Part shown: positions 3,282 through 59,430 of the stretch, in pieces
How the letters are laid out: each line of letters begins with the position of its first letter
Numbering within the stretch: the first letter of the stretch is position 1
Assembly (NCBI GenBank): GCA_016790285.1
Contig: JAEUPJ010000046.1
Coordinates: forward strand, 1 to 64,000
Length of the DNA: 64,000 bases
Reading direction: 5' to 3'
Source: Roseateles sp.
GTDB lineage: Bacteria > Pseudomonadota > Gammaproteobacteria > Burkholderiales > Burkholderiaceae_C
The notes under the pieces: model-generated
Seen by the model: the letters and a program-made list of their open reading frames with translations, nothing else
Databases searched by the model: none
Told to the model about the DNA's origin: nothing
Position numbers and translations under genes: made by a program

Positions 3282-3325
3282 AAGACCCCCCGTACCGGCT
3301 GACGCCGGCCCCCCGAGGGGGCGCA
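3282..3325 (+). repeat. Dispersed hairpin repeat, copy 1 (inverted copy at 58028-58070)
   Basis: This 44-nt stretch contains an internal CCGGC/GCCGG hairpin and a CCCCC/GGGGG hairpin. It matches the reverse complement of 58028-58070, which is 43 nt, with one inserted G as the only difference. The rest of 3149-3413 shows no convincing gene: short open frames on both strands lack starts, signals or recognisable family motifs. Confidence 0.75.
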
Positions 3326-14451: not shown

Positions 14452-14866
14452 GCCGAGCGCCGGGCCGCCCCAAGCCGGCCCGGTCGGGCGATGTGCAAGC
14501 GGCTCAAAGCCGCGCGCATCGCCACCCCCTCGGGGGGCAGGCCGGGCTGCCCGCGTCCAGCGTGGCAGCCTGGACGACGAGCCCGATTCCCTTCGGGCCG
14601 AGCGCCGGGCCGCCCCAAGCCGGCCCGGTCGGGCGATGTGCCAGCGGCTCAAAGCCGCGCGCATCGCCGCCCCCTCGGGGGGCAGGCCGGGCTGCCCGCG
14701 TCCAGCGCGGCAGCCTGGACGACGAGCCTGATTCCCTTCGGGCCGAGCGCCGGGCCGCCCCAAGCCGGCCCGGTCGGGCGATGTGCAAGCGGCTCAAAGC
14801 CGCGCGCATCGCCGCCCCCTCGGGGGGCAGGCCGGGCTGCCCGCGTCCAGCGCGGCAGCCTGGACG
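14452..14866. repeat. Three tandem copies of a 145-bp hairpin-rich repeat
   Basis: Copies start at 14452, 14597 and 14742, exactly 145 bp apart; the third is cut after about 125 bp. Copies 1 and 2 differ at about four positions, copies 2 and 3 at one. Each contains several hairpins: CCGGGCCG/CGGCCCGG, GCGGCT/AGCCGC, CCCC/GGGG and GGGCAG/CTGCCC. The array fills the gap between the small basic protein gene and the convergent metW gene. Nothing in the whole 14444-14876 gap looks coding; the open frames there simply repeat with the unit. Confidence 0.92.
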
Positions 14867-53442: not shown

Positions 53443-54816
53443 TCACACCGGCCAGGCGCGCTGCGCCGGGCGCATCTGTTCCCACGCCGCGCCAAGCGCC
53501 AGCACGCCCGCGTCGTCGAAGCGGCGGCCGATGATCTGCAGGCCGATGGGCAGCCCCGCGGCCGTGTAGCCGGCGTTGAGGGCCAGCGCCGGCTGCTCGC
53601 TCATGTTGCAGGGCAGCGTGAAGGCGATGTGCTCGAAGGGCCGCGCCGGGTCGTGCAGCGGGCTGGCCTGGTGCGCCGGATAGGCGGGCATGGGCGAGAC
53701 GGGCGACAGCACGAAATCGAACGGCTCGCAGGCCGCGTTGGCCGCCTCCCGCAGGGCCTGCATCTGGCTGTAGCCGCGGAACACGGCGCTGGCGTCGTAG
53801 CCGGCCGCGGGCGCCACCCAGTCGAGGATGTAGGGCAGCACCTTGACGCGCCGCTCGGGCGGCAGGGCCGAGATGTCCAGCCAGGAGCGCATGCGCCAGA
53901 AGCGGTCGATGCCGTCGGCCATCTCGCGCGTCGTGAAGCCGGCCAGCGGCTCGACGACGGCGCCCGCCTGCTCGAAGGCCCGCGCGGCGGCGGTGACGGC
54001 AGCGGCCACCTCGGGCTGCACGGCGTCGCCCCAGCCGGCGTCCAGCATCAGGCCGATGCCCAGGCCGCGCAGGGTCAGGGGCCGCGGCATGACGTCGCCC
54101 GGCGGGAGTTGCGTGGGGTCGCGTGCATCGGGCTGGGCGAGGACTGCCAGCATCGCCGCGGCATCAGCCACGGTGCGCGTGAGCGGCCCGGCCACGCGGC
54201 CGGCGTAGGCCGGCTGGATGGGCACGCGGCCGTGGCTGGGCTTGAGGCCGACGAGGCCACACCAGCCTGCGGGCAAGCGGATGGAGCCGCCGATGTCGGT
54301 GCCCAGGTGCAACGGGCCGTAGCCGGCGGCGGCCGCCGCGGCAGCCCCGGCGCTGGAGCCGCCGGGCGTCATGCGTGCATCCCAGGGGTTGCGCGCCGGC
54401 TCCGGGTAGAGACTGGACAGGCCGGAGCTGAGCATGCCGTAGTCGGGCATGGTGGTGCGCGCCCACGCGATGGCCCCCGCCTCGCGCAGCCGCGCCGCGG
54501 GCGGGGCCTCGAAGCCAGCCACGGCGTCGTCAGGCGTGGCCGCCGTGCCCAGCCGGTAGGCGGCGCCCGGCACGGCGATGTTCTCCTTCAGCGTGACGGG
54601 CACGCCGTCCAGCGCCAGCGGCGTGCCGGCACGCCAGCGGGCTTCGCTGGCGCGGGCGGCAGCCAGCGCGCCGTCGGCATCGAGCGCACACAGGGCGTGC
54701 AGCGCCGGCTCGCGTCGCTCGGCCTGGGCCACCACGTCGCGCAGCACGTCCACGGGCGAGAGCTCGCCCGAGCGGTAGGCCGCCAGCAGTTCGGCGACCG
54801 ACAGCGCGGCGATCAC
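53443..54816 (-). CDS. Amidase signature-family hydrolase
   Basis: Hydrolyses an amide to acid plus ammonia through a Ser-cisSer-Lys triad. Seen: 457 residues; Lys77 in VPVTLKENI, cis-Ser in TPGGSSAGAAAAA (153-154), nucleophile Ser178 in DIGGSIRLPA. No signal peptide, so it is cytosolic. GatA-like in fold, but there is no gatB/gatC nearby, so it is more likely a stand-alone catabolic amidase. Its ATG overlaps the peroxiredoxin stop by 4 bp. Confidence 0.93.
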   Translation of the reverse strand: MIAALSVAELLAAYRSGELSPVDVLRDVVAQAERREPALHALCALDADGALAAARASEARWRAGTPLALDGVPVTLKENIAVPGAAYRLGTAATPDDAVAGFEAPPAARLREAGAIAWARTTMPDYGMLSSGLSSLYPEPARNPWDARMTPGGSSAGAAAAAAAGYGPLHLGTDIGGSIRLPAGWCGLVGLKPSHGRVPIQPAYAGRVAGPLTRTVADAAAMLAVLAQPDARDPTQLPPGDVMPRPLTLRGLGIGLMLDAGWGDAVQPEVAAAVTAAARAFEQAGAVVEPLAGFTTREMADGIDRFWRMRSWLDISALPPERRVKVLPYILDWVAPAAGYDASAVFRGYSQMQALREAANAACEPFDFVLSPVSPMPAYPAHQASPLHDPARPFEHIAFTLPCNMSEQPALALNAGYTAAGLPIGLQIIGRRFDDAGVLALGAAWEQMRPAQRAWPV

Positions 54817-55355
54817 TTCTTGAACTTCTCGGCGGCCTTGAGCATGGCGTCGATGTGCCCGTCGGGGTTCATGCTGGCATGCACCGCGGCGATCTTGCCG
54901 TCGGGGGCGATCAGGTAGGAGATGCGGTCGGCCATGGTGCCCGGCACCATCTTCAGGCCCGCGTCGTAGGACTTGATGACCTTGCCGTCGGCGTCCGCCG
55001 CCACGGCGAACTTGCTGCGGCAGGCCTCGACGCTGAACTTCTTCAGCGTGTCGATGTTGTCGTTGGACAGGCCGATGACGGTGGTGTTGAGTGCCTTGAA
55101 CTTGTCCGTCGCCTCGGCGAACTGGTGGGCCTCGACGGTGCAGCCGCTGGTGAAGGCCTTGGGGTAGAAGTAGACGACGACCGGCCCCTGCTTGAGGGCG
55201 TCGGCCAGCTTGAACTTGAAGGGCTGGCCACCCACGGCGGCGTCGGCGCTGAAGTCGGGCGCCGGCGCGCCCACGGTCAGGGCGGCATGGGCCGGCAGCG
55301 CCAGGCCCAGCAGCAGCGGCAGGGCGGACAGCAGTCGGGAGGGAGACTTCAGCAT
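54813..55355 (-). CDS. Exported peroxiredoxin (AhpC/TSA, PrxQ/BCP-like)
   Basis: Reduces peroxides through a peroxidatic cysteine. Seen: 180 residues; signal peptide MLKSPSRLLSALPLLLGLALPAHA; thioredoxin fold with VVVYFYPKAFTSGCTVEAHQF, peroxidatic Cys72 in the FTSGC motif. A second Cys112 (EACRSKFAV) could act as resolving residue. Periplasmic location is inferred from the signal peptide; family relatives in this branch are often cytosolic. First gene of the coupled pair with the amidase. Confidence 0.92.
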   Translation of the reverse strand: MLKSPSRLLSALPLLLGLALPAHAALTVGAPAPDFSADAAVGGQPFKFKLADALKQGPVVVYFYPKAFTSGCTVEAHQFAEATDKFKALNTTVIGLSNDNIDTLKKFSVEACRSKFAVAADADGKVIKSYDAGLKMVPGTMADRISYLIAPDGKIAAVHASMNPDGHIDAMLKAAEKFKK

Positions 55356-55451: not shown

Positions 55452-56354
55452 ATGACTACTCCGACTTGCTGCCGCGTGCCGGCGCTTGCGCGCTGGCTTC
55501 CCTTGTACCTGCCCCTGTCTCTGGCCTTGGCGGTGGCCCTGCCAGGCTGCGGCGGCATCGGCAGCGTGGGCGAGGATGTGGCCGGCGCCCTGATCGATGG
55601 CGTCGTGTGCGGCCTGCGCAACTGCACCGAATCCTCCACGCTCAACATTGACGAGATCAGCCCGCGCTTCACGGCCACGCAGGCGGCTGGCGACAACGCC
55701 GTGGTGGTGGAGGGCGGCCTGGGCAAATCGGCCAATGTGTTCACGTCCGTGCTGATGGCGCCCAACGAGCAGCTGGCGGTGAGCGTGGACGGCAGCCCGG
55801 AGGTGGCCATGTCCAACCCCGACGGCAAACGCCTGAGCTACACCACCCGGCTGACGGCGCGCAGCACTCAGCCCGTGGTGCAGGTGGTGTTCACGCGGGG
55901 CGGCGTGCGGCACGTGAGCCAGGTGACGCTGCCCACGGGCTTCACCGTGCTGCAGCCTGCAGGTGCGGCGCAGCTGACGCGCACCGGAGCGGCGCTGCCG
56001 GTGCGCCTGAGCATGGCGACCGTGGGCACGGCCACTGCGTCGGCGAGCGGCACCTGCACACGTACCGATGGCAGCAGCTTCACGACCCAGGCCACGGGCC
56101 TCAATGCCCGCATCGAAGGCAGCACGGCCGGTGCCTACCGCCTGGAGCCGACCGACGTCGACGAGGCCCTGACCGCCACGAGCCGCAGCTTCAACAACAA
56201 CGACACCCGCACGCCGGCCGTGAGCCGCTGCGCACTGACCGTCACCTGGACCCACGCGGTGCAAGGCAGCACGCCGGCCACGATGAACCGCCACGGGGCG
56301 CTCCTGGGCCAGCGCACCGCCACGCACCCGCTGAGCTACGACGCGCAGCTCTGA
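55452..56354 (+). CDS. Putative lipoprotein of unknown function
   Basis: Seen: 300 residues. An N-terminal export signal (about residues 12-32) has the lipobox-like ALPGC. A Gly-rich segment follows, then a beta-rich body with repeated strands (YTTRLTARSTQPVVQVVFTR) and Cys pairs (CGLRNC; later SGTCTR and SRCALTV). No enzyme motif and no family recognised. A GAGGTG site precedes the ATG. Its 3' end overlaps the convergent bufC-like gene by 19 bp. Confidence 0.75.
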   Translation: MTTPTCCRVPALARWLPLYLPLSLALAVALPGCGGIGSVGEDVAGALIDGVVCGLRNCTESSTLNIDEISPRFTATQAAGDNAVVVEGGLGKSANVFTSVLMAPNEQLAVSVDGSPEVAMSNPDGKRLSYTTRLTARSTQPVVQVVFTRGGVRHVSQVTLPTGFTVLQPAGAAQLTRTGAALPVRLSMATVGTATASASGTCTRTDGSSFTTQATGLNARIEGSTAGAYRLEPTDVDEALTATSRSFNNNDTRTPAVSRCALTVTWTHAVQGSTPATMNRHGALLGQRTATHPLSYDAQL

Positions 56355-57121
56355 AGCAGGCCGTCGGCCAGCCAGCGCTGCAGCAGGCTGATGACGGCGG
56401 GCGCCGCGGCCTCGGCATCGCCCAGCTCGCCGGCCGCGGCCTCGCACAGGGCCGCAAAAGTGTCGCCACGGGCCACGGCGGCCAGCAAGGCGGCCTCGAG
56501 CGGCTCCAGCGATCGCCAACGCGTCTCCAGCCCCTGGCGCCAGGCCAGCAGCTCATGAACGTGCGGCACGGGCTCGGGCAGCTCGGGCTGCTCGTCGCCT
56601 GACTCGGGGTCCCATTCGCGCAGCACCCGCCAGGCGGGCTCGATGGCGTGGGCCAGCGTCACGCGCTGCACGCTGGGCTGCAGGTGCAGCACGAGGCCGG
56701 CCCAGTCGTCGGGGCCGAGCGCGGCCAGCGCGGCACCCTCCAGCGGCGGCGCCGCGGCGGCGTCGAAGGCGCCACGCAGGGCCCAGTCCATGCGGGCGAA
56801 GTCCACGAGGCTGGCGTGCGGCACGAGATCGTCACCGGCGCTGGCCATGAACCCGGCCAGGCCGTCGCCGAACCAGCGGATGGAAGGGTGGCGGCTCGGG
56901 TGGGCGGCCAGGTAGGCCTGGCCCAAGGCGTCGAAGGCCTCGTCGCCCAGGGCGCGGGCCAGCGCGGTGAAGTTGTCGGTCAGCGCCGCCACGAGCCGGG
57001 CACGGTAGGCGTGGCGGTAGGCCTGCAGGCCCAGGGCGAAGTCGCCCGCCAGCAGGCCGGTGGCGTCGGCGCCGTCGCGGATGGCCGCGGCCAGGCGCTG
57101 CTGGAGCGCGGCGGTCGTCAT
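56336..57121 (-). CDS. bufC: DUF2063 / HvfC-BufC-type partner protein of the bufferin operon
   Basis: Seen: 261 residues. N-terminal DUF2063 domain with [28 protein letters not shown] and [24 protein letters not shown]. The C-terminal half is winged-helix-like, ending [12 protein letters not shown]. Known: this family accompanies the DUF692 MNIO enzyme and is thought to present the RiPP precursor to it. It is coupled to the enzyme gene by a 4-bp overlap (ATGA). Third gene of the operon; no DoxX-like gene follows. Confidence 0.9.
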
Positions 57122-57948
57122 GCCGAAGCCGCCAGTCGTCGTGCCACGGCCAGCTCGGCCAGCAGGCTGTCCAGCGGCGGGATGTCGTCGTCGCGCTCGA
57201 TCATGGTGGGCACCGCGCCGAACCGCCGCACGGCGTCCTGGTACAGCGCCCAGACCTCGTCGCGCACGGGGTGGTCATGGGTGTCGATGACGATGTCGCC
57301 GCGGTCTTCATGCCCGGCGAGGTGGATCTGCCGCACCGGCTCGACGGGGATGCCGGCCAGGTAGGCCTGCGGGTCGAAGCCGTGGTTGCGGCTGGAGACG
57401 TAGACGTTGTTCACGTCCAGCAGCAGCTGCGCGCCGGTGGCCTTCAGCAGCTGCGCGATGAAGGCCCACTCGGTCATCTCGTCCGCCGCGAAGCGCACGT
57501 AGCTCGACACGTTCTCCAGCACGAGCGGGCGGCCGAGGATGTCCTGCACCTGCGCCACACGGCCGCCGACATGGTCCAGCGCCGCGCGCGTGAGCGGCAC
57601 GGGCAGCAGGTCGTGCAGCTGGCTGTGGGCGTCGGCGCTCCAGCACAGGTGGTCGGACACCCAGCCCGGCTCCAGCCGGTCGGCCAGGGCCTTGAGCTCG
57701 CGCAGGTAGGCCACATCCAGCGGCGCCGGTCCGGCCACCGACAGCGACACGCCGTGCATGACCAGCGGGTAGTCCGCCCGGATGCGGTCCAGGTGCGCCA
57801 GCGGCGGCCCGCCCGGCACCAGGTAGTTCTCGGAAATGATCTCCAGCCAGTCGGGCCGCACGTCAGCACCCACGCCCGCCTCGAAGGCCGCGTAATGCTC
57901 GACGCGCAACCCCAGGCCAAAGCCTTGGATCTTGGTCATGTGTTTCAT
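57118..57948 (-). CDS. bufB: DUF692 multinuclear non-heme iron oxidative enzyme (MNIO), bufferin maturase
   Basis: TIM-barrel iron enzyme that modifies cysteines of a ribosomal peptide. Seen: 276 residues from [15 protein letters not shown]; a second ATG (57939) is the alternative. Metal-site motifs match the DUF692/MbnB pattern: [45 protein letters not shown] and DTHDHPV. Known: BufB-type MNIOs act on Cys-rich bufferin precursors, with BufC. It lies 120 bp after the precursor gene, with a hairpin repeat between, and is coupled to bufC. Confidence 0.93.
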
Positions 57949-58027
57949 CTGAACGGAAGGGCGCGCGCCGCAGGCGCCGCGCCGCATCCAGCAGCACCTG
58001 CGGATCTGGCTCCGCCAGTCCGCACGG

Positions 58028-58070
58028 TGCGCCCCCTCGGGGGGCCGGCGTCAGCCGGTAGGGGGGTCTT
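58028..58070 (-). repeat. Dispersed hairpin repeat, copy 2, between bufA and bufB
   Basis: The reverse complement of this 43-nt stretch matches 3282-3325 except for one base. It begins within the bufA stop codon (TAAGAC...) and contains a CCGGC/GCCGG and a CCCCC/GGGGG hairpin. Placed between precursor and enzyme genes, it could cap the bufA message or reduce read-through to bufB (inference). Confidence 0.75.
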
Positions 58071-58323
58071 ACTTCTCCACCTTGCCACCGGCCTTGGTGC
58101 ACTCGTCAGCCGACTTCTTGCTGACCCAGCCCTGGCCCTTGCAGCCGTTGTGGCCCTTGCACTCGCTCTTGGCGGTCTTGCACTCGGAGGTGCCCTTGCA
58201 GCCGTTGATGCCAGAGCACTTGACCATGCCGTCAGCAGCCATCGCGGTCGTGGGCACGGCGGTGGCGAAGAGGGCAGCAGCGGCGGCAGCGATGCCCAGG
58301 CCGGTCTTGAGGGATGCGTTCAT
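58069..58323 (-). CDS. bufA: Bufferin-type Cys-rich RiPP precursor
   Basis: Seen: 84 residues. An N-terminal export signal runs to about residue 30 (LGIAAAAAALFATAVPTTAMAA). The Cys-rich core carries six Cys: KCSGINGC (36, 42), TSEC (48), KSEC (55), NGC (61) and DEC (75), with Lys/Gly spacers and GWV. Known: bufferins are exported, MNIO-modified peptides that bind copper in the periplasm. Adjacency to DUF692 and DUF2063 genes supports this strongly. A GGAG site precedes the ATG. Which Cys are modified cannot be told here. Confidence 0.92.
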   Translation of the reverse strand: MNASLKTGLGIAAAAAALFATAVPTTAMAADGMVKCSGINGCKGTSECKTAKSECKGHNGCKGQGWVSKKSADECTKAGGKVEK

Positions 58324-58410
58324 GGAGGTCTCCAAACAGAAAAAGGAAGTGGTTGAGATCGGGTTCACCACAGGTCGATCCGAGAAGACCTCGCATCGAC
58401 TTGCCTGCTT

Positions 58411-58439
58411 GCGTCGGCGTGACCTGGCCAGTCCTTACA
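58411..58439 (-). promoter_or_regulatory. Candidate ECF-sigma-type promoter for the bufferin operon
   Basis: On the minus strand TGTAAGG (58439-58433), a 16-nt spacer, and CGACGC (58416-58411) resemble an ECF-type -35/-10 pair (GTAA..., CGAC...), about 90 bp before the bufA ATG. Known: bufferin operons in other bacteria are often under ECF sigma factors responding to copper. No sigma/anti-sigma gene lies in the window. This is pattern-based inference. Confidence 0.4.
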
Positions 58440-58548
58440 GCCGGCGGTCAGATTCTGATGACCTGGCGTTATGACTGCAATGGCGGCCGGCATTCGTCGG
58501 GCCCGGCGCCAGCCGCTAGAGTCCGGCAGCTTGCCGCCACCTGATCCC

Positions 58549-59430
58549 ATGCTGAACACCGAAACCCCGAGCACCCGTCACCCCGACCTGGACACCTACG
58601 CCACGCCGGCGCTGCTGGATGCGTTCGTCGACGACCAGACCGCCGCGGTGGCCGCCGTCAAGGCCGCGCTGCCGCAGCTGGCCGCCGCGGTGGACGCCGC
58701 GCTGCCGCGCATCCGCGCCGGCGGCCGGCTGCTGTACGCCGGCGCGGGCACCTCGGGCCGCCTGGGCGTGCTGGACAGCGTGGAGCTGCACCCGACCTTC
58801 TCCTGGCCGCGCGAGCGCGCCGTGGCCGTGATTGCGGGCGGCGAGGGCGCGATGTTCGTCGCCGTCGAAGGCGCCGAGGACGACCGCGCACAAGGCGCTG
58901 CCGACCTGGCGGCCCTGAACCCCGGCCCCAACGACGTCGCCCTGCTGCTGGCGGCCTCGGGCGGCACGCCCTACGTGCTGGGCGCCATCGAGGCCGCGAA
59001 GGCGGCCGGCGCGCTCACCATCGGCTTCGCCAACAACCCGGGCGCGCCCGTCACGCGCGAAGCCGACATCGGCGTCACGCTGGACACCGGCGCCGAGGTC
59101 ATCTCCGGCAGCACGCGGCTGAAGGCCGGCACCTCGCAGAAGATCGCGCTGAACACCTTCTCGTCGGCCCTGATGGTGAAGCTCAACAAGGTCTACGGCA
59201 ACCTGATGGTGGACCTGAAGGCCACCAACGCCAAGCTCGTGAAGCGCGCGCTGGCGCTCACCGTGCGCGCCAGCGGCGCGAGCGAGGCGCAAGCGCAGGC
59301 CGCGCTCGAACAATGCGGCCACCACGTGAAGACCGCGCTCGTGATGCTCAAGCGCGGCATCGGCGCGGCCGAAGCCCGGGCGCTGCTGGATGCGGCGGAC
59401 GGCAGCGTGAGCCGGGCCCTGTCCGCATGA
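58549..59430 (+). CDS. murQ: N-acetylmuramic acid 6-phosphate etherase
   Basis: Cleaves the lactyl ether of MurNAc-6-phosphate to GlcNAc-6-phosphate and lactate in wall recycling. Seen: 293 residues with the SIS-domain hallmarks AGAGTSGRLGVLDSVELHPTF and ASGGTPYVLGAI, GSTRLKAGTSQKIALN and KVYGNLMVDLKATN. C-terminal UBA-like helices include LKRGIGAAEARALL. First gene of the recycling operon, with a 4-bp overlap with the ampG-like gene. Upstream 58324-58548 is the shared gap with bufA. Confidence 0.95.
   Translation: MLNTETPSTRHPDLDTYATPALLDAFVDDQTAAVAAVKAALPQLAAAVDAALPRIRAGGRLLYAGAGTSGRLGVLDSVELHPTFSWPRERAVAVIAGGEGAMFVAVEGAEDDRAQGAADLAALNPGPNDVALLLAASGGTPYVLGAIEAAKAAGALTIGFANNPGAPVTREADIGVTLDTGAEVISGSTRLKAGTSQKIALNTFSSALMVKLNKVYGNLMVDLKATNAKLVKRALALTVRASGASEAQAQAALEQCGHHVKTALVMLKRGIGAAEARALLDAADGSVSRALSA

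Follow-up and report, generated by a model that had tools for sequence, protein, structure and literature searches.

A Buf2-type bufferin operon in Roseateles sp. and a candidate sigma factor for its control

Genes and class of the operon

We analysed 64,000 nucleotides (nt) of Roseateles sp. DNA (GenBank assembly GCA_016790285.1, contig JAEUPJ010000046.1, positions 1 to 64,000), hereafter the window, in which a three-gene bufferin cluster lies on the minus strand at 56336-58439. An earlier note, made from the letters of the DNA alone, had described there a single operon for an exported six-Cys precursor (BufA), a DUF692 multinuclear non-heme iron-dependent oxidative enzyme (MNIO; BufB) and a DUF2063 partner (BufC), preceded by a candidate extracytoplasmic function (ECF)-type promoter. 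All of these elements were found on the minus strand, all three reading frames are intact, and the bufferin-type assignment proposed in the note could be refined to Buf2. The features, in the order of transcription, are as follows.

58413..58439, minus strand: ECF-type promoter, TGTAAGGACT-N13-CGAC, about 90 nt 5' of the bufA2 start codon
58069..58323, minus strand: bufA2, precursor gene, 84 aa, NCBIfam NF050166 match
57949..58068, minus strand: bufA-bufB intergenic gap, about 120 nt, strongly folding, without a T-run
57118..57948, minus strand: bufB, MNIO (DUF692) maturase, start at 57948 or 57939, PF05114 and NF050167 matches
56336..57121, minus strand: bufC, DUF2063 partner, PF09836 match

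A comparison of the precursor with BufA families, which the note had recommended, gave 87.9 bits against the NCBIfam equivalog model NF050166 (BufA2; cut-off 60). A putative signal peptide covering residues 1-29 (MNASLK...TTAMA, followed by AD) was proposed by eye from apparent n, h and c regions and a likely cleavage site between AMA and AD, and all six Cys lie within the mature part. A Pfam scan of the precursor at E 0.01 matched no family. BufB scored 358.9 bits against PF05114 (MbnB_TglH_ChrH; cut-off 25) and 364.1 bits against the NCBIfam model NF050167 (MNIO_BufB; cut-off 310). Because precursor and enzyme both score above their model cut-offs (BufA2 and BufB, respectively), 56336-58439 is assigned by sequence to the Buf2 (Buf_6/12Cys) bufferin clusters, a described family, and not to Buf1. 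A Buf1 identity (DUF2282, four Cys) was rejected: the window precursor has no DUF2282 match, and the sole DUF2282 match of the genome lies on another contig, C75.

The Cys pattern of the precursor (KCSGINGC/GTSEC/KSEC/GHNGC), which the note had singled out as worth comparing, turned out to be unremarkable. We collected 80 related loci, the top-ranking 80 among 575 confirmed BufB-similarity matches, and found bufA2 in 78 and bufC in all 80. An alignment of 89 mature BufA2-like sequences, from the window and 78 of these loci (some with two copies), revealed exactly six Cys in 88 of them, with every Cys column invariant or absent from one row and the CKG motifs almost invariant. By these comparisons the precursor is typical of Buf2 and its Cys pattern is the ordinary one. 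Antoine et al. (2025) reported that 90% of Buf2 precursors have six Cys (PMC12452194). Their Buf2 bufferins share with the present operon the six Cys, the MNIO and the DUF2063 partner, and they have a Sec signal peptide, as is predicted here; no structural difference from the present operon was found in what that article describes. Bufferins have also been placed in a proposed wider class, the captophorins (PMC13097082).

A sequence search of solved structures with BufB revealed relatives including 3BWW, 8HCI and MbnB, and the alignment with 3BWW shows the common motifs HG, SDHL, EN.S, DVNN, H.AGH, DTH and ERD, which we take to hold the iron ligands. BufC matched PF09836 (DUF2063) with 75.2 bits (cut-off 27.2) and stayed below the HvfC equivalog cut-off (37.7 versus 142 bits); a PDB sequence search with it at E 0.1 gave no match. 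From its association with a Sec precursor, BufC would be a PME type 1 partner.

The stop of bufB and the start of bufC overlap as ATGA (57121-57118), which suggests translational coupling. The bufA-bufB gap (median 92 nt in relatives, n=76) folds with a z of -2.9 over 57940-58080, and 2 of 200 shuffles folded equally well; a possible role of the fold is to stabilise the transcript at its bufA end. An intrinsic terminator was rejected here, as hairpins are present and a T-run is absent. The gap also holds the palindrome CCCCCCGAGGGGG, which recurs at 3306 and in a tandem array at 14452-14866 (145-bp unit, 2.9 copies, 98% matches).

The note had further remarked that the operon ends at bufC without a doxX gene. 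The observation is correct, since no doxX follows the window bufC and the next open reading frame (ORF), 55452-56354, lies on the opposite strand and overlaps the bufC end by 19 nt; the novelty it implied is not. DoxX is present somewhere in 11 of the 80 related loci, and in one of these (L062, Pfam-confirmed) it comes immediately after the Buf2 bufC, as judged by a DoxX profile grown from one seed, with the first ORFs after bufC checked against Pfam for L062 and L025 only. Little sequence remains after bufC in three of the 79 loci without a following doxX (L026, 506 nt; L056, 314 nt; L066, 504 nt). Similarly, in stretches fetched from genomes of the family, DoxX was present in 17 of the 21 having a bufA1 match and followed bufC in none of six Buf2 operons. 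A Buf2 operon without doxX is thus the usual form among these relatives, and doxX loss as a peculiarity of this operon was dropped. In print, doxX is counted as a core bufferin gene, yet as an optional one. The genome's own Buf1 operon on contig C75 carries doxX. A third locus, MNIO-DUF2063-DoxX, lies on contig C107 (L015 4309-6392), where any precursor would fall beyond the contig end.

The same layout is known from Caulobacter vibrioides, whose operon CC2907-CC2906-CC2905 (CCNA_03001-02999) likewise consists of precursor, DUF692 and DUF2063 genes and is described without doxX and without a sigma gene of its own (PMC3511200, PMC8224329). We take this match from the papers, as the BufA2 model gave no hit at E 0.001 in our Caulobacter control genome.

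The promoter and its conservation

A search of the window with TGTAAGGACT-N13-CGAC revealed the bufA2 site as the sole exact match; four more sites appeared at three mismatches, with about two expected by chance. When the spacer was relaxed to N12-14, the 5.88-Mb genome contained two sites, one before bufA2 in the window and one before bufA1 on C75. In a search of 100 family genomes, the relaxed pattern gave 16 sites in 13 genomes, and the reversed pattern gave 5 sites. Thirteen of the 16 lie directly 5' of a bufferin precursor gene (11 bufA1, each beside an anti-sigma gene, and 2 bufA2), although two of these 13 are the window genome's own, from which the pattern was derived. The spacer is N13 in exactly the 13 bufferin sites and differs in the other three. 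With this share of its sites at bufferin genes, the exact box may help to find unlinked bufferin genes.

The shorter pattern TGTAAGG-N14-18-CGAC shows no enrichment genome-wide (4 sites versus 8 for the reversed pattern), and the promoter evidence comes only from the longer box, from where it sits and from how well it is conserved. One of the four short sites falls inside the sigma gene on C75 itself, probably by chance; another lies on contig C50.

We then scored TGTAAG-N16/17-CGAC/CGTC 5' of bufA2 in all 78 related loci with a precursor, grouped by locus number. A perfect score (10/10) was found in 34 of the 37 scored betaproteobacterial loci (L024-L062 less L060), and none of 3,900 shuffles reached it; the shuffles move two-base blocks and are an approximation. 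None of the gamma/alphaproteobacterial set (n=36) was perfect. Its single 9/10 belongs to L067, a betaproteobacterium, and another betaproteobacterium in the set, L079, scored 8/10 or lower; the other 34 loci have no box at 9/10. A further locus, L093, stood apart and scored 10/10, bringing the betaproteobacterial tally to 35 of 40 when L067, L079 and L093 are included. Four methylotroph gammaproteobacteria gave one 10/10 and one 9/10 (L066 and L092). By eye, the two operons within a genome showed no visible co-variation in the GACT extension of the box. The promoter that the note had offered as a candidate is, owing to this conservation in relatives, a well supported prediction.

The candidate sigma factor

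The bufA2 operon contains no sigma factor gene. On C75, an ECF sigma gene and a gene for a 64-aa anti-sigma factor lie divergently to bufA1. The sigma product scores above the TIGR02943 and PRK12520 cut-offs; the anti-sigma factor matches NF052368 and, below the cut-off, zf-HC2, a weak zinc-finger match. Because of the identical promoters and the co-occurrence described below, the C75 sigma factor most likely drives both operons, the Buf1-doxX operon beside it and, in trans, the Buf2 operon.

Among the 100 family genomes, BufA2 scored above its cut-off in 20 and the anti-sigma factor was found in 48, namely in 18 of the 20 BufA2 genomes and in 30 of the 80 others (Fisher p 2.6e-5, uncorrected for relatedness). 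The same 18 genomes hold a sigma orthologue (45-100% identity), which stands beside bufA1 in 16 of them. The control genomes for the orthologue were mostly picked for lacking the anti-sigma factor and hence are no independent control, whereas the comparison of 18/20 with 30/80 is one. Promoter scoring covered a single BufA2 copy in each genome and, in G006, a second one, with two extra G054 copies left out. Thirteen of the 20 genomes have the TGTAAG-type Buf2 promoter at 10/10 and four at 9/10, two have TGTAACC-N16-CGAA at 11/11, and G002 has neither. The TGTAAG box also precedes Buf1 operons, at 10/10 in 13 of 21 and at 9/10 in five.

The control of two bufferin operons by one ECF sigma factor, with one operon unlinked, is established for Caulobacter sigF (PMC3511200). 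It acts on both the three-gene operon without doxX and a four-gene operon with doxX, the latter lying beside the sigma gene and having a very similar promoter (PMC3511200), and both operons are induced by copper (PMC8224329). However, the Caulobacter sigma factor has NrsF as its partner and recognises GTAACC-N16-CGAA (PMC3511200). This published box is contained in the TGTAACC-N16-CGAA promoter of the two exceptional family genomes, G027 and G071. Among the BufA2 genomes, NrsF was found only in these two and in G000 (p 0.016, uncorrected for relatedness), and the Buf2 promoter of G000 is of the TGTAAG type. In G027, genes for an ECF sigma factor and NrsF (L212 2992-4985) are divergent from a BufA2-family precursor gene with a perfect TGTAACC-N16-CGAA promoter, and bufA1 adjoins the other, C75-type ECF gene and has a TGTAAG box scoring 9/10. 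The sigma-NrsF pair of G071 stands at Buf1, and Buf2 lies on a separate contig. Buf2 clusters are described in PMC12452194 as being without sigma and NrsF genes, to which G027 is an exception.

Other known systems are comparable in part. In Cupriavidus metallidurans, gigPABT (precursor-MNIO-DUF2063-DoxX) and the divergent rpoQ-rsqA pair of ECF and anti-sigma genes match the arrangement of the window genome's Buf1 locus; GigP has four Cys, and the anti-sigma factor is predicted to be membrane-bound, in contrast to the 64-aa zinc-finger-like protein here (PMC10304878). Haemophilus influenzae RpoE2-HrsE and Neisseria meningitidis SigE are ECF systems in which the cytoplasmic anti-sigma factor is likewise small (67 aa), and they control a DUF692-DUF2063-DoxX operon in trans (PMC7907618). 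That operon differs in having doxX, and msrAB is among the main targets (PMC7907618).

Several observations weigh against control of both operons by the C75-type sigma factor. Both bufferin operons of G047 are preceded by TGTAAG boxes (9/10 and 10/10), yet its best sigma match reaches 36% identity, too low for a close orthologue, and no anti-sigma match was found in it. In G054, the sigma gene stands beside bufA1, yet no TGTAAG box is present there (7/10). The sigma gene of G002 lies away from the bufferin genes and its bufA2 has no clear promoter of either type, and in G033 the sigma gene is not beside bufA1. The window genome encodes a sigma-NrsF pair, yet its promoter is of the TGTAAG type. 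Promoters scoring 9/10 are weak cases because 110 of the 3,900 shuffles (2.8%) reached that score, and the co-occurrence p-values ignore relatedness. Furthermore, deletion of rpoQ in C. metallidurans raised gig expression instead of abolishing it (PMC10304878), in conflict with the report that gig is under RpoQ control (PMC7563307).

A broader reading would be that two distinct ECF systems have taken over one bufferin regulon, which pairs a Buf1 operon having doxX with a Buf2 operon lacking it, and that the promoters switched together with the regulator. The system with a small zinc-finger-like anti-sigma factor and TGTAAG...CGAC boxes at both operons would serve most sampled Buf2 genomes of the family, and a sigma-NrsF system with TGTAACC...CGAA a minority, as in Caulobacter; G027 would split its operons between the two. 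Because of the G054 bufA1 and the two genomes whose sigma gene is not beside Buf1, we regard this reading as evenly balanced between true and false.

Neighbouring genes, proposed function and alternatives

Downstream of bufC, the plus-strand ORF at 55452-56354 is lipoprotein-like (lipobox LPGC by eye), convergent with bufC and without a Pfam match; it has homologues in 10 of the 80 related loci. Here it stands between bufC and an AhpC/TSA peroxiredoxin gene at 54813-55355 (minus strand), whose product appears exported by eye. A peroxiredoxin gene follows bufC directly (at most about 150 nt away, same strand) in seven of the 80 relatives (L024, L025, L027, L028, L029, L037 and L039) and lies about 1-3.5 kb from bufC in seven more, and in part of the clade it may therefore belong to the operon as its fourth gene. 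Upstream, a divergent SIS-domain gene (58471-59430, plus strand; Pfam GKRP_SIS_N) has a homologue in 17 of the 80 relatives; it presumably resembles N-acetylmuramate-6-phosphate etherase.

The gene families, their layout, and the identity and conservation of the promoter were observed directly. We consider it quite probable that bufA2-bufB-bufC is an ECF-driven Buf2-type operon for a periplasmic, copper-buffering modified peptide, with the C75 ECF factor as its sigma in trans. Envelope or copper stress would release the sigma factor from the 64-aa zinc-finger-like anti-sigma factor, and the freed sigma factor would transcribe both bufferin operons. In the cytoplasm, BufB and BufC would oxidise precursor Cys to copper-binding heterocycles; the modified peptide would be exported by Sec and would buffer excess copper in the periplasm. 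The chemistry and the copper role are proposed by analogy with studied relatives, and copper binding by this peptide, its export, the inducing signal and the identity of the sigma factor are likewise predicted.

It is possible, though unlikely, that the operon handles another metal or an envelope oxidant instead of copper. Relatives of the bufferins respond to gold, silver, chromate and cadmium (PMC10304878, PMC3511200, PMC8224329, PMC7563307), and the H. influenzae ECF factor with its 67-aa anti-sigma factor, which controls a DUF692-DUF2063-DoxX operon, is hypochlorite-responsive (PMC7907618). The presumably exported peroxiredoxin encoded directly after bufC in some relatives would also suit an oxidant. 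However, Buf1 and preliminary Buf2 work in Caulobacter points to copper (PMC12452194), and the Caulobacter sigF mutant is copper-sensitive (PMC8224329).

Control by the other candidate ECF factor of the genome is very improbable. This factor is encoded adjacent to the genome's one NrsF gene (L016 4639-6029, contig C1), and such a sigF-NrsF pair controls the Caulobacter bufferin operons (PMC3511200). But the window promoter, TGTAAGG...CGAC, is that of the Buf1 operon beside the C75 sigma gene, and a search of the 10 kb surrounding the C1 pair revealed no bufferin gene. The sigF-type box TGTAACC-N16-CGAA scored 8/11 at the window operon, no better than shuffles (14 of 100 reach it; these again move two-base blocks and are approximate), and control by the C1 pair was dropped for this reason. 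A DUF3047 gene lies near the C1 pair. A decayed or silent cluster left after doxX loss is hardly credible: doxX is missing here and present at the genome's two other MNIO loci, but the three frames are intact, the families score above their cut-offs, the promoter is conserved, and doxX after bufC is rare in Buf2 relatives.

The earlier note thus described the locus soundly, and the operon is an ordinary one of the Buf2 bufferin type; the present analysis adds a modest prediction about its regulation that can be tested. A literature search, with most subscription papers outside its reach, brought up work on Caulobacter, Cupriavidus, Haemophilus and Legionella, among others, but neither a study of Buf2 regulation outside Caulobacter nor a description of a TGTAAG...CGAC promoter common to Buf1 and Buf2. 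In the 2025 survey, the Buf2 modifications were not yet identified (PMC12452194). Together with the Buf1 operon and the sigma and anti-sigma genes beside it, the Buf2 locus offers a clean test of whether one ECF system with a small anti-sigma factor senses envelope copper and switches on both peptides.

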